NCBI RefSeq assembly: GCF_029945685.1
Contig: NZ_JAQSDA010000020.1
Span: forward strand, 364,044 to 428,043
DNA: 64,000 nucleotides
Origin: Polaromonas sp.
GTDB lineage: Bacteria > Pseudomonadota > Gammaproteobacteria > Burkholderiales > Burkholderiaceae_C
Direction of reading: 5' to 3'
In this document: piece by piece, positions 4,845 to 45,666 of the stretch
Numbering within the stretch: the stretch's first letter is position 1
How the letters are laid out: each line of letters starts with the position of its first letter
Notes under the pieces: generated by a model
Database searches by the model: none
What the model was told of the DNA's origin: nothing
What the model saw: the letters and a program-made list of their open reading frames with translations, nothing else
Program-made: the position numbers and the translations under genes

Positions 4845-4903
4845 GAAAAAAAACGACTGCAGCCCTTGCAGGACGGGCGCAAAAAGCTATTGTTTTGGTA
4901 GCG
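4845..4903 (+). repeat. Copy b of ~60 bp repeat family
   Basis: actgcagcccttgcaggacgggcgcaaaaagctattgttttggtagcg. Confidence 0.75.
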
Positions 4904-5817: not shown

Positions 5818-5878
5818 TCAAATATGCCTCAAGCCCCTACCGGACATGCGCAAGCAGCTATTGTTTTTATAGCGAACC
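5818..5878 (+). repeat. Copy c of ~60 bp repeat family
   Basis: atgcctcaagcccctaccggacatgcgcaagcagctattgtttttatagcg. Confidence 0.75.
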
Positions 5879-7638: not shown

Positions 7639-9609
7639 GTGGCCATTCCCCAATCATTCATCCAGGAACTGCTGGCGCGCGCCGACGTGGTGGACATCGT
7701 CGGGCGTTATGTACAACTCAAAAAAGGCGGCGCCAATTTCATGGGGCTGTGCCCCTTCCACGGCGAAAAATCACCTTCCTTCAGCGTGAGCCCGTCCAAG
7801 CAGTTCTACCACTGCTTCGGCTGCGGAAAAAACGGCAACGCCATCAGTTTTCTGATGGAGCACGGCGGCATGACCTTCGTTGAGGCCGTGAAAGACCTGG
7901 CCCAGCAGTACGGCCTGCAGGTGCCCGAAGACGACGTCTCGCCGCAGGAGCGCGCCCGCGCCGCCCAGGCGCGCGAGCAGCAGGCCACGCTCACAAGCGT
8001 GCTGGAAAAAGCCGGCATCGCCTACATCAAGCACCTGCGGAGCGCACCGCGCGCCATTGATTACCTCAAGGGCCGCGGCCTGTCCGGTGAAATTGCAAAA
8101 ACCTTCGGCCTCGGTTACGCGCCCGAAGGCTGGCGCGCACTGGCCAGCGTCTTCCCCGACTACAACGACCCGTTGCTGGTCGAAAGCGGGCTGGTCATCA
8201 CCGGCGAGCCGGGTGAGGAAAATTCGCAGGGCGAAGCCAAGCGTTACGACCGCTTCCGCGACCGCATCATGTTTCCGATCCGCAACGTCAAGGGCGAATG
8301 CATAGGTTTCGGTGGGCGCGTGCTGGGCGACGAAAAGCCCAAGTACCTGAACTCGCCGGAAACCCCGGTGTTCAGCAAGGGCCGCGAGCTCTACGGCCTG
8401 TTCGAGGCGCGCACCGCCCTGCGTGAACACGGCTACGCGCTGGTCACCGAAGGCTACATGGACGTGGTGGCGCTGGCCCAGCTCGGTTTTGCCAACGCCG
8501 TGGCCACCCTGGGCACGGCCTGCACCGCCGACCATGTGCAAAAACTGTTCCGTTTTACCGATTCGGTGGTCTTCAGCTTCGACGGCGACAGTGCCGGCCG
8601 CCGCGCCGCGCGCAAGGCGCTGGACGCCGCCCTGCCCTTTGCCACCGACGTACGCACCGTCAAGTTCCTGTTTTTGCCGGCCGAACACGACCCCGACAGC
8701 TACATCCGCGAACACGGCCAGGAAGGGTTTGCCGCCTATGTCGCCAAGGCCGTGCCGCTGAGCAGATTCATGCTCGAAGCCGCCGGCGAAGGCTGCGACC
8801 TGGACACCGCCGAAGGCCGCGCCCACATGGCCAGCAATGCGCGCCCGCTGTGGAGCCTGCTGCCCGACGGCACGCTCAAGCACCAGTTGCTCGCCGAGAT
8901 CGCCGACACCGTGCTGATCGACAGCCGCGAACTGCTGCAAATCTGGCAGCCGGCCGCGCCGCACTATAAAAACAGTAGCAGCTCGCGCACACCGGGCAAG
9001 GGCCAACGGCCTAAAACACCTGAAATGTCGGGCGGTGCGCCGGATTTCGGGGAGTTTTCCGGCAACTTCGCCGACCTGCACGACGAAGGCGCTTACGCTG
9101 CCTCGCTGCCCATGGACACGTCGCCGGCAGGCGGGTCTGCCGGCCGCAGCTTCGGCGCCAAGCCCGGTGCCAGCCGCCCGCCGCGGCGCATCGCCGGGCG
9201 GGTGTTGCCGGCCGGCCGGGAGGACCGGGTGCTGCGGCTGATGCTGACCGAGCCACAAAGCTGGGACAAGCTCAGCGGGGAAGAACACGTGCTGCTGTCG
9301 GAGCTGCCGGCGCCGCACGGCCCGCTGTTTGTCTGGCTGGAGAGCCAGCTGCACGAACACGGGCCGCAGCCCTGGGCGGCGCTGCGCGAGGGCCTGCGCG
9401 AGCACCCGCACGAGAAACACGCGATTGACCAGATCGCCCAGCTTCTGGACGGCATCGAGTGCGACTGGAACGAGGTCCGCGCCATCCTGGACCAGCTCCT
9501 CAAGCTCAAGCGCCAGCAGGAAATGGTTGATTTGCTGCCCCGGGTGCTGACCGACCCGGCGGCCAGGCAGCGTTACGAAGCCTTGTCCGGCCTGCTGAAA
9601 AATAGCTGA
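7639..9609 (+). CDS. dnaG: DNA primase
   Basis: GTG start: MAIPQSFIQELLARADVVDIVGRYVQLKKGGANFMGLCPFHGEKSPSFSVSPSKQFYHCFGCGKNGNAISFLM (Zn finger); TOPRIM VTEGYMDVVALAQ; located just before rpoD. Confidence 0.97.
   Translation: MAIPQSFIQELLARADVVDIVGRYVQLKKGGANFMGLCPFHGEKSPSFSVSPSKQFYHCFGCGKNGNAISFLMEHGGMTFVEAVKDLAQQYGLQVPEDDVSPQERARAAQAREQQATLTSVLEKAGIAYIKHLRSAPRAIDYLKGRGLSGEIAKTFGLGYAPEGWRALASVFPDYNDPLLVESGLVITGEPGEENSQGEAKRYDRFRDRIMFPIRNVKGECIGFGGRVLGDEKPKYLNSPETPVFSKGRELYGLFEARTALREHGYALVTEGYMDVVALAQLGFANAVATLGTACTADHVQKLFRFTDSVVFSFDGDSAGRRAARKALDAALPFATDVRTVKFLFLPAEHDPDSYIREHGQEGFAAYVAKAVPLSRFMLEAAGEGCDLDTAEGRAHMASNARPLWSLLPDGTLKHQLLAEIADTVLIDSRELLQIWQPAAPHYKNSSSSRTPGKGQRPKTPEMSGGAPDFGEFSGNFADLHDEGAYAASLPMDTSPAGGSAGRSFGAKPGASRPPRRIAGRVLPAGREDRVLRLMLTEPQSWDKLSGEEHVLLSELPAPHGPLFVWLESQLHEHGPQPWAALREGLREHPHEKHAIDQIAQLLDGIECDWNEVRAILDQLLKLKRQQEMVDLLPRVLTDPAARQRYEALSGLLKNS
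8961..9018 (-). repeat. Copy of ~60 bp repeat family inside dnaG
   Basis: actataaaaacagtagcagctcgcgcacaccgggcaagggccaacggcct aligns without gaps to the reverse complement of copy k. Confidence 0.6.
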
Positions 9610-9625
9610 TCCAGGCCCATTTTTG

Positions 9626-9655
9626 TTGCCCAAAAATGAGGCAACAGGGTATAAT
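9626..9655 (+). promoter_or_regulatory. Candidate sigma70 promoter upstream of rpoD
   Basis: TTGCCC - 18 bp - TATAAT (9650-9655). Confidence 0.55.
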
Positions 9656-9790
9656 CCGATTTTCCGCTACGGCAAGCGCGACAGCAGCACCTCCGGTACC
9701 AGCCCCCCGCAAGAACGGGACCTCACAGGTTGAAGGGCCACCTCCCCGCAAGGACTGCACACCAAATGTTCGCCCAAACAACTTGCCTGC

Positions 9791-9822
9791 AAATGCCCAG
9801 CCGTCCGGCCCGGGCATTTTTT
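9791..9822 (+). terminator. Intrinsic terminator/attenuator-like hairpin in the rpoD leader
   Basis: AAATGCCC...GGGCATTT then T-run; an overlapping alternative hairpin is GGGCA-TTTTTTG-TGCCC. Confidence 0.5.
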
Positions 9823-9897
9823 GTGCCCGCGTGCTGACTTTCGTCAGGTGCCCGGGAACCCAGTCTGTTGAAGGAAGTTTTTCATCGGGAGTTCGCC

Positions 9898-12422: not shown

Positions 12423-12481
12423 ATCAAATCGGCCCCCGACCCTTTCTGGACGGGCGCTACCAGCTACTCAAACGATAGCAA
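12423..12481 (+). repeat. Copy d of ~60 bp repeat family
   Basis: aaatcggcccccgaccctttctggacgggcgctaccagctactcaaacgatagcaa. Confidence 0.75.
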
Positions 12482-12590
12482 CTGCCACTTGCTGGCCACA
12501 GCCTTTGGCGCAGGAGCCCGTGTCCTCGGGGCCAGCTCCCTACAATCCCATCACCAGCGCGGCAGGCGCCGTGACGAACCGGGAGTTCTT

Positions 12591-13645: not shown

Positions 13646-13708
13646 AAGGAAGAGGCCTCCAACCCTTTCTGGACGGGTGCACCAAGCTCCTGTTTCAATA
13701 GCACTCAA
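13646..13708 (+). repeat. Copy e of ~60 bp repeat family
   Basis: gaggcctccaaccctttctggacgggtgcaccaagctcctgtttcaatagcac; shares ccctttctggacggg with copy d. Confidence 0.75.
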
Positions 13709-23604: not shown

Positions 23605-23670
23605 GAATCAAAAGTGGCTCCAGCCCTTATCTACCATGCGCAACCAGCTATCAATTCAGTAGCCAATCAA
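23605..23670 (+). repeat. Copy f of ~60 bp repeat family
   Basis: gtggctccagcccttatctaccatgcgcaaccagctatcaattcagtagcc. Confidence 0.75.
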
Positions 23671-32916: not shown

Positions 32917-32978
32917 AAATCTGGCGCAAGCCCTCAACAAAAAAGCGCAAGCAGCTATATTTTTAGTAGCGTTGAGGC
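32917..32978 (+). repeat. Copy g of ~60 bp repeat family
   Basis: ctggcgcaagccctcaacaaaaaagcgcaagcagctatatttttagtagcg. Confidence 0.7.
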
Positions 32979-34449: not shown

Positions 34450-34511
34450 ATCGAAAAAGAGCTCCAGACCAATAACCACGGGCACAAGCAGCTATGTCTT
34501 TAATAGCAAAT
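34450..34511 (+). repeat. Copy h of ~60 bp repeat family
   Basis: gagctccagaccaataaccacgggcacaagcagctatgtctttaatagcaaa. Confidence 0.7.
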
Positions 34512-35633: not shown

Positions 35634-35695
35634 AGAAATTGGCCTCCAGCCCTGGCTGCCCTTGCGCAGACAGCTATCAAATCAAGAGCAAATCG
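35634..35695 (+). repeat. Copy i of ~60 bp repeat family
   Basis: aaattggcctccagccctggctgcccttgcgcagacagctatcaaatcaagagcaaa. Confidence 0.75.
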
Positions 35696-36790: not shown

Positions 36791-36852
36791 CAAAAAAGTG
36801 GTTGCAGCTCAATAAATGCGGGCGCAAGAAGCTATCAAAACAATAGCAATCA
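36791..36852 (+). repeat. Copy j of ~60 bp repeat family
   Basis: aaagtggttgcagctcaataaatgcgggcgcaagaagctatcaaaacaatagcaa. Confidence 0.75.
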
Positions 36853-38156: not shown

Positions 38157-38198
38157 TCTCACCCTCGCCCTTCGGGAGAGGGCCGGGGTGAGGGCTTG
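38157..38198. repeat. REP-like palindromic intergenic repeat
   Basis: tctcaccctcgcccttcgggagagggccggggtgagggctt. Confidence 0.65.
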
Positions 38199-42344: not shown

Positions 42345-42485
42345 CCAGCCGACGATGGCGAAGTCGGCTATTGAGATTTCTTGGGCTGCGGAGAAAGCGT
42401 GGCCGACCAGGCGGCGGTCCATCACGCCGTAGGCGTTTGGTCGCGACCATGAAGCGCTCCAGGCCGTAGCGGCGATCGGCTTCGT
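42345..42485. repeat. Partial degraded duplicate of the GST gene, copy 1 (relic)
   Basis: Direct repeat of 43258-43400 with substitutions and net 2 bp length change (frameshift). Confidence 0.8.
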
Positions 42486-42503
42486 TTTTTGGGCGGTTCG
42501 CTG

Positions 42504-43128: not shown

Positions 43129-43767
43129 TCATGCTGAGCGCTTCAACGCCACCCCAAACCCTCGGGCCACTGCCGGCCGCGCCATCATCCCCCGGTACCA
43201 CCGCAACACATTTGGGAAATCCGCCAGATCGATCTTGTGCCGGTCATGCCGCCAGACCCAGCCGACGATGGCGAAGTCGGCGATTGAAATTTCCTCACCT
43301 GCAAAGAAGGCGTGGTCGGCCAGGCGGCGGTCCATCACGCCGTAGAGGCGTTTTGTCTCGGCCATGAAGCGCTCCAGGCCGTAGCGGCGGTCGGCTTCGT
43401 CTTTGAGTGCGATGAAGTGGTGCACCTGGCCGGGCATGGGGCCAAAGCCGGCCATCTGGAACATCAGCCACTCCATCACCGCCACGCGGGCGCGCGGGTC
43501 CTTGGGCAAAAAGGTGCCGGTCTTTTCGGCCAGGTAGATCAGGATGGCGCCGGACTCGAAGACGCTGATGGGCTCACCGCCCGGGCCGTCGGGGTCGATG
43601 ATGGCAGGGATCTTGTTGTTGGGACTGATCTTCAGGAACTCGGGCGCGGTCTGCTCGCCCTGGGTGATGTCCACCACATGCACCTCGTAGGGCAGGCCCA
43701 TTTCCTCGAGGGCGACGGTGATCTTGCGGCCGTTGGGGGTGTCGAAGGCGTAGAGCTGGATGGGCAT
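43129..43767 (-). CDS. Glutathione S-transferase family protein
   Basis: MPIQLYAFDTPNGRKITVALEEMGLPYEVHVVDITQGEQTAPEFLKISPNNKIPAIID... Confidence 0.9.
   Translation of the reverse strand: MPIQLYAFDTPNGRKITVALEEMGLPYEVHVVDITQGEQTAPEFLKISPNNKIPAIIDPDGPGGEPISVFESGAILIYLAEKTGTFLPKDPRARVAVMEWLMFQMAGFGPMPGQVHHFIALKDEADRRYGLERFMAETKRLYGVMDRRLADHAFFAGEEISIADFAIVGWVWRHDRHKIDLADFPNVLRWYRGMMARPAVARGFGVALKRSA
43258..43400. repeat. Copy 2 of the GST-derived direct repeat (inside the intact GST gene)
   Basis: Matches 42345-42485. Confidence 0.8.
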
Positions 43768-45480: not shown

Positions 45481-45560
45481 GGCCCCCTCGCCCTCCGGGA
45501 GAGGGTTGGGGTGAGGGCCGCCGACCCTCACCCCTGCCCTCTCCCGGGGGGAGAGGGAGT
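45481..45560. repeat. REP-like pair of inverted repeats
   Basis: ccctcgccctccgggagagggttggggtgaggg...ccctcacccctgccctctcccggggggagaggg. Confidence 0.75.
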
Positions 45561-45602: not shown

Positions 45603-45664
45603 AAGCCAAATCGACCTCCAGCCCTTACCTGACGTGCGCCAGCAGCTACTAAATAAATAGCACT
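45603..45664 (+). repeat. Copy k of ~60 bp repeat family
   Basis: aaatcgacctccagcccttacctgacgtgcgccagcagctactaaataaatagcac. Confidence 0.75.
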
Positions 45665-45666
45665 TT

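Follow-up and report, generated by a model that had tools for sequence, protein, structure and literature searches.

The dnaG gene of a Polaromonas sp. was confirmed to carry, in frame within the linker of its DNA primase, a real and ancient copy of a short repeat, one of many copies of the same family. We put at about 0.7 the probability that this family consists of functional DNA sites, about 700 per genome, and that the dnaG segment is an old in-frame copy that has partly decayed.

Repeat copies in the window

The window, which is the whole stretch of 64,000 nucleotides analysed, contains eleven clear intergenic or gene-end copies and the dnaG segment, as recovered by a repeat search and a profile:

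7639–9609, + strand, dnaG (DNA primase), from Pfam zinc ribbon, catalytic core and Toprim, the gene caller and orthologues; start codon uncertain
8964–9013, + strand, in-frame repeat copy in the DnaG linker, model positions 4–53, encoding YKNSSSSRTPGKGQRP in the dnaG frame
5820–5874, − strand, intergenic copy nearest to the dnaG copy, 35/50 identical (repeat search, profile and 50-mer comparison)
4849–4903, − strand, copy at the end of a BrkB-family gene (repeat search and profile)
2777–2836, + strand, intergenic copy (profile)
12426–12482, − strand, copy (repeat search and profile)
13649–13706, − strand, copy (repeat search and profile)
23610–23667, − strand, copy (repeat search and profile)
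32917–32973, − strand, copy (repeat search and profile)
34454–34511, − strand, copy (repeat search and profile)
35636–35694, − strand, copy (repeat search and profile)
36794–36851, − strand, copy (repeat search and profile)
45608–45665, − strand, copy (repeat search and profile)

Other features of the window include a TATAAT-like box in the dnaG-rpoD intergenic region (9620–9868), a terminator-like GC hairpin followed by a T run in the rpoD leader (near 9797–9830), and two adjacent blocks, 42345–42489 and 43258–43404, which are 88–92% identical and are probably tandem paralogous genes. Three arms of a GC-rich inverted repeat, CCCTCGCCC...GAGAGGG...GGGTGAGGG, were located at 38162–38195, 45485–45520 and 45522–45557; they belong to a different family from the dnaG repeat and, by composition, could be the published BRE.

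The dnaG segment as a copy of the repeat

A preliminary description had placed a copy at 8961–9018; the place was right, with the matched element slightly narrower. It had also counted by hand about 33 of 50 identical positions in a gap-free alignment with the reverse complement of a window copy, and the best copy (5819) in fact gives 35 of 50, while random 50-mers of the window (n = 1888) reach at most 30 of 50. The repeat search of the window aligned the dnaG stretch to the reverse complement of 5833–5872 with 31 of 40 positions identical, and the core positions C4, T5, A17-G18-C19 and G40-G42 are all found in the dnaG copy. A profile built from the 11 window copies only gave the segment 10.9 bits (E = 0.026 per 64 kb), a score that is underpowered and would not survive at genome-wide significance. 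A profile trained iteratively on 191 other copies in 1.26 Mb, a sample comprising 27% of the assembly, with dnaG always left out of training, gave 27.2 bits (E = 3.9e-6 per 1.26 Mb), so that the in-frame copy is genuine and its score significant. The maximum score of the genome-trained profile was 10.7 bits in the reversed genome, 19.7 bits when the codons of all called genes were shuffled synonymously three times (none ≥ 20 bits) and 15.6 bits in 400 kb of an element-free relative.

Thirty dnaG genes of the Polaromonas group were recovered and codon-aligned together with the window's own, and most of them carry the element sequence at the same linker position and in the same frame. The dnaG of two other Polaromonas, L094 and L105, scored 37.6 and 33.2 bits, respectively (37.2 and 31.0 bits in an independent covariance-model search); the window copy lies further from the family consensus than these two. 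Beyond Polaromonas, dnaG of L024, L252, L256, L257 and the Variovorax locus L017 matched in the same frame with 18–26 bits, while Rhodoferax-like dnaG genes hold weaker remnants in which CTAT...ATAGC is read as YxxxS. All 24 linkers scoring ≥ 7 bits have the element in one reading frame, which argues for common descent of the dnaG copy. In the G064 dnaG (L258) the match contains two in-frame TGA codons, pointing to a pseudogene, a frameshift or an assembly error. On a tree built from the N-terminal 435 residues of DnaG, the carriers group together in the part of the family that holds Polaromonas, Rhodoferax and Variovorax; there are several losses, a few carriers fall outside (L256, L257, L036), and the element is absent from the sampled dnaG genes of Hydrogenophaga, Acidovorax/Comamonas, Burkholderia, Cupriavidus and Oxalobacteraceae.

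A lineage-specific insertion of about 19 aa among related DnaG proteins had been named as what would speak for insertion. This was not supported, because the linker is hypervariable, with 46–142 aa in related Comamonadaceae as against 35–41 aa in Burkholderia or Oxalobacter relatives, and several genera share the element or its remnant; a clean 19-aa insertion is therefore not demonstrable in dnaG. The original ends of the element are unreadable since the copy is old and shared across most Polaromonas and some other genera. The same linker at equal length is not present in distant relatives, and with a significant profile score neither of the two grounds named beforehand for refuting the copy applies. 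The linker is expected to be disordered, and the idea that the repeat had been domesticated found no evidence of use by the DnaG protein, four Polaromonas (L102, L110, L001 and L092) having dnaG without the element. Variable columns numbered 5 of 17 at conserved positions against 14 of 30 at other positions of the dnaG copy (p = 0.36, not significant), and this old, partly decayed copy may therefore be decaying now.

The possibility that a low-complexity linker resembles the repeat by chance or through its composition could draw on the E of 0.026 from the window copies and on the hypervariability of the linker. It is refuted by the 27.2 bits of the larger model, the 37.6 bits of an orthologue, the single frame in 24/24 linkers and the far lower nulls, so that its probability is close to nil.

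Sequence, number and placement of the family

The family consensus is nTGCTATnaAtTtnATAGCTGCTtGCGCccGtccngcaaGGGCTGgAGgCcgaTTTga followed by a weaker A-rich block. The elements are dispersed, about 58–66 bp long and about 50% GC, with a dyad, GCTAT-N7-ATAGC, within the element. Taken over all copies, conservation runs past the 58-position model into positions 59–66 (CTT and then an A-rich block), and the true element length is probably about 66 bp. The 191 copies in 1.26 Mb correspond to about one per 6.6 kb, or by extrapolation about 700 per genome; 116 are intergenic and 75 (about 40%) lie in genes called by a simple home-made hexamer caller, giving densities of 0.83 per kb between genes versus 0.067 per kb in genes. 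No published description of the family was found in the open-access literature by organism, element kind or literal sequence. Copies showed no strand bias with GC skew, and a polar signal of the KOPS or Chi kind was rejected on this ground.

An RNA-level 3′-end element, either a terminator or an mRNA stability hairpin, that drifted into dnaG might be expected from the many window copies directly after stop codons and from the smaller number of copies between divergent genes (11) than between convergent genes (38). The orientation of the copies contradicts such a reading, which we regard as very unlikely: between co-directional genes 30 copies are sense and 37 antisense, copies in genes occur on both strands (45 antisense and 30 sense), paired positions show no covariation among copies, and a search of the window against Rfam 15 returned no match at the gathering score. 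With 30 sense against 37 antisense copies between tandem genes genome-wide, it is also not meaningful to say, as had been suggested, that the dnaG copy shares its transcript-sense orientation with the gene-end copies.

Copies inside genes

The preliminary description treated dnaG as a notable exception, a standing that it loses with 75 of 191 copies inside called genes. The family does occur in coding DNA, as had been claimed. The in-frame copies listed number 71; per 1.26 Mb, about 70 unrelated genes carry such a copy. Antisense copies are in frame 0 in 33 of 42 cases, with peptides like ALxxRAQAAIKxIA, and sense copies in frame 1 in 21 of 29, with the peptide AIxxIAACAR; the preferred frames are the stop-free ones, and the dnaG copy is in the rare sense frame 2. 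Hosts identified by Pfam include truB, lpxB, lpxK, nadE, tilS, earP (two copies), a SpoU methylase, pcm, a heptosyltransferase and an RlmD/RumA-like methyltransferase. Six genes on C25, C27 and C20 of G000 (L141–L200) hold two copies each, such as earP at L158:6838-7974. The intragenic family match is at the DNA level, because synonymous shuffles abolish it.

The TilS orthologues compared came from 30 genomes in 18 genera. All 15 with a detectable element have a longer segment (38 aa, one with 46), all nine with a short segment (34–35 aa) are without the element, and six combine the longer segment with a decayed element. The element spans about 17–18 aa with a net gain of only 4 aa, suggesting that it replaced part of the old sequence. 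Relative to solved (PDB) homologues, TilS is longer by about 6 aa, EarP by about 4 and RlmD by 8. In a sparse relative, G042, with 8 elements in 400 kb, the DNA match is mostly lost and the length usually kept. A short, element-free tilS allele was observed in three element-rich Polaromonas (L301, L317 and L311 of G047, G014 and G024, respectively), suggesting allele replacement or precise loss. The intragenic pattern fits copies that arrived long ago by insertion, replacing part of the target, and whose DNA motif was afterwards either maintained or decayed.

Age and constraint of the copies

Against G026, a genome of the same genus with about 90% DNA identity, 51 of 51 testable copies were at the same site and none was new, and 23 of 24 intragenic copies showed no change in length. 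Copies within the genome share a mean pairwise identity of 57% (maximum 83%), and A17, G18 and C19 are invariant in 190 of 190 compared copies, both intergenic and intragenic.

Substitution rates were compared between G000 and G026, one species pair, over 49 orthologous copies. In intergenic copies, conserved positions differed at 20 of 524 (3.8%; core 3 of 249), against 200 of 916 at other element positions and 159 of 731 in the flanks (both about 21.8%), so that conserved positions change about six times slower than the other element positions. In coding copies, differences were found at 28 of 503 conserved, 133 of 887 other and 106 of 743 flanking positions. At third codon positions the corresponding counts were 8 of 154 (5.2%), 75 of 305 (24.6%) and 470 of 2329 (20.2%), while the non-conserved part of the element changed faster than the rest of the gene at first and second codon positions (58 of 582 versus 189 of 4663, p = 2e-8). 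Fast change at the latter positions together with slow change at the motif positions indicates that copies in genes keep the DNA motif and not the peptide. Because the elements were fitted to one genome, positions conserved in that genome could be favoured. The apparent rate is at most halved by picking copies that are intact in a single species, so half the neutral rate was taken as the bound; against it the intergenic deficit remains (p = 3e-9) and the deficit at third positions is modest (p = 0.02 or 0.003, depending on the choice of neutral rate). The conserved element positions are thus shown to be under current DNA-level constraint in the G000-G026 pair.

These results bear on a selfish palindromic element of the Rickettsia palindromic element (RPE) or MITE kind, which would have transposed into coding DNA, survived in frame and become inactive, its conservation reflecting past mobility needs. 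Such an element would account for the in-frame copies in so many unrelated genes with their strong frame preference, for the dyad and for a copy number that is patchy over genus and family. Its weakness lies in present constraint, which it does not explain: a dead element should decay evenly, yet conserved positions change about six times slower than the rest. The fixed sites in the comparison with G026, the absence of near-identical copy pairs (maximum 83%) and a Y1-transposase-like gene without flanking copies also speak against it, and we consider this explanation unlikely.

Distribution across genomes

The covariance model detected the element in 47 of 121 sampled genomes of the host's family. 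Within the genus the copy count ranges from 0 to at least 136, and several Polaromonas are almost without copies, so the element is dispensable. A single Y1-transposase-like gene and ComEC both occur in element-rich and element-poor genomes alike, with no correlation to copy number. The Y1 transposase was rejected as the mover because it does not track copy number and no copies flank its gene in L291, and ComEC was rejected as a marker of an uptake role for the missing correlation.

An analogue of DNA uptake sequences, maintained by molecular drive through biased uptake during natural transformation and evolving in place in genes, would agree with hundreds of copies, many in genes, on both strands, with frame bias and no strand polarity, which resemble known signals (PMC2346458, PMC1939737). 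Gain or loss within the genus and the scarcity of close pairs (3 within 500 bp versus 14.4 expected) would also agree. Nevertheless, the element is far longer than the known 9–12-bp signals, with information spread over about 58–66 bp, and at this length an origin by point mutation is implausible; one copy per about 6.6 kb contrasts with about one per kb, and the TilS length change and the presence of ComEC with or without the motif also count against uptake, which we hold to be improbable.

Proposed explanation

In the favoured reading, that of functional DNA sites, each site would be recognised as DNA by a chromosome-wide factor of the nucleoid, segregation/repair or DNA-uptake type. The sites may go back to ancient insertions in which part of the target was replaced, as the net gain of 4 aa in TilS suggests, and in genes they would have survived where the frame was stop-free and new residues could be accommodated by the protein, the variable DnaG linker being an example. 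The DnaG peptide would then be a tolerated by-product and not an adaptation. Against the DNA-site reading, the analysis found neither a binding protein nor a phenotype or associated gene, and the motif exceeds the length that a typical protein site needs. The near absence of copies from several Polaromonas, the non-significant constraint test in dnaG, the modest third-position deficit, the single species pair and the home-made gene caller also weigh against it.

A broader proposition, to which we give even odds, is that an undescribed chromosome-wide recognition sequence of Comamonadaceae, under DNA-level selection, overwrote codons in about 250–300 genes per genome, including dnaG, tilS and truB, and left short protein scars upon loss of the system. 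If so, hundreds of protein positions in Comamonadaceae would be set by a DNA signal instead of protein function, which would affect how alignments, indels and apparent insertions in this family are read, and the odd DnaG linker peptide would be explained without any primase adaptation. After Rickettsia, this would also be a second lineage of bacteria with in-frame repeats on a mass scale, here with measurable constraint, which makes the question of selfish DNA or function directly testable.

Comparison with known systems

The betaproteobacterial repeat element (BRE) is likewise an interspersed repeat of Polaromonas, mostly intergenic and sometimes within coding sequence. With about 90 bp, 64–79% GC (about 69%), often tandem arrangement and 29 copies in Polaromonas JS666 (PMC3110155), its description sets it apart, and it was rejected as the family on size, GC content, copy number and dispersion. 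REP elements with RAYT transposases are similarly small, palindromic, mostly intergenic and of high copy number. They measure 20–40 bp and carry GTAG/CGTC tags, and the REP/RAYT survey names no Comamonadaceae (PMC3733652); in contrast to REP elements, no copy of the present family flanks a Y1-like gene, and the Y1 gene is not limited to element-bearing genomes.

DNA uptake sequences of Pasteurellaceae and Neisseriaceae are 9–12 bp with flanks and arise by point mutation (PMC2346458, PMC1939737). They share with this family hundreds of copies, many of them intragenic, frame bias, lack of replication polarity and maintenance at the DNA level, whereas the known ones are shorter, denser and of point-mutation origin. 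The review PMC10969869, citing Ogata et al. (2000 and 2002), describes the RPE, about 150 bp long, as selfish DNA that codes for a conserved peptide. Compared by that description, it is alike in being a short repeat with a dyad that lies both between genes and in frame within many unrelated protein genes, whereas the present family, at about 58–66 bp, is read in several frames and has its DNA positions, rather than its peptide, under constraint.
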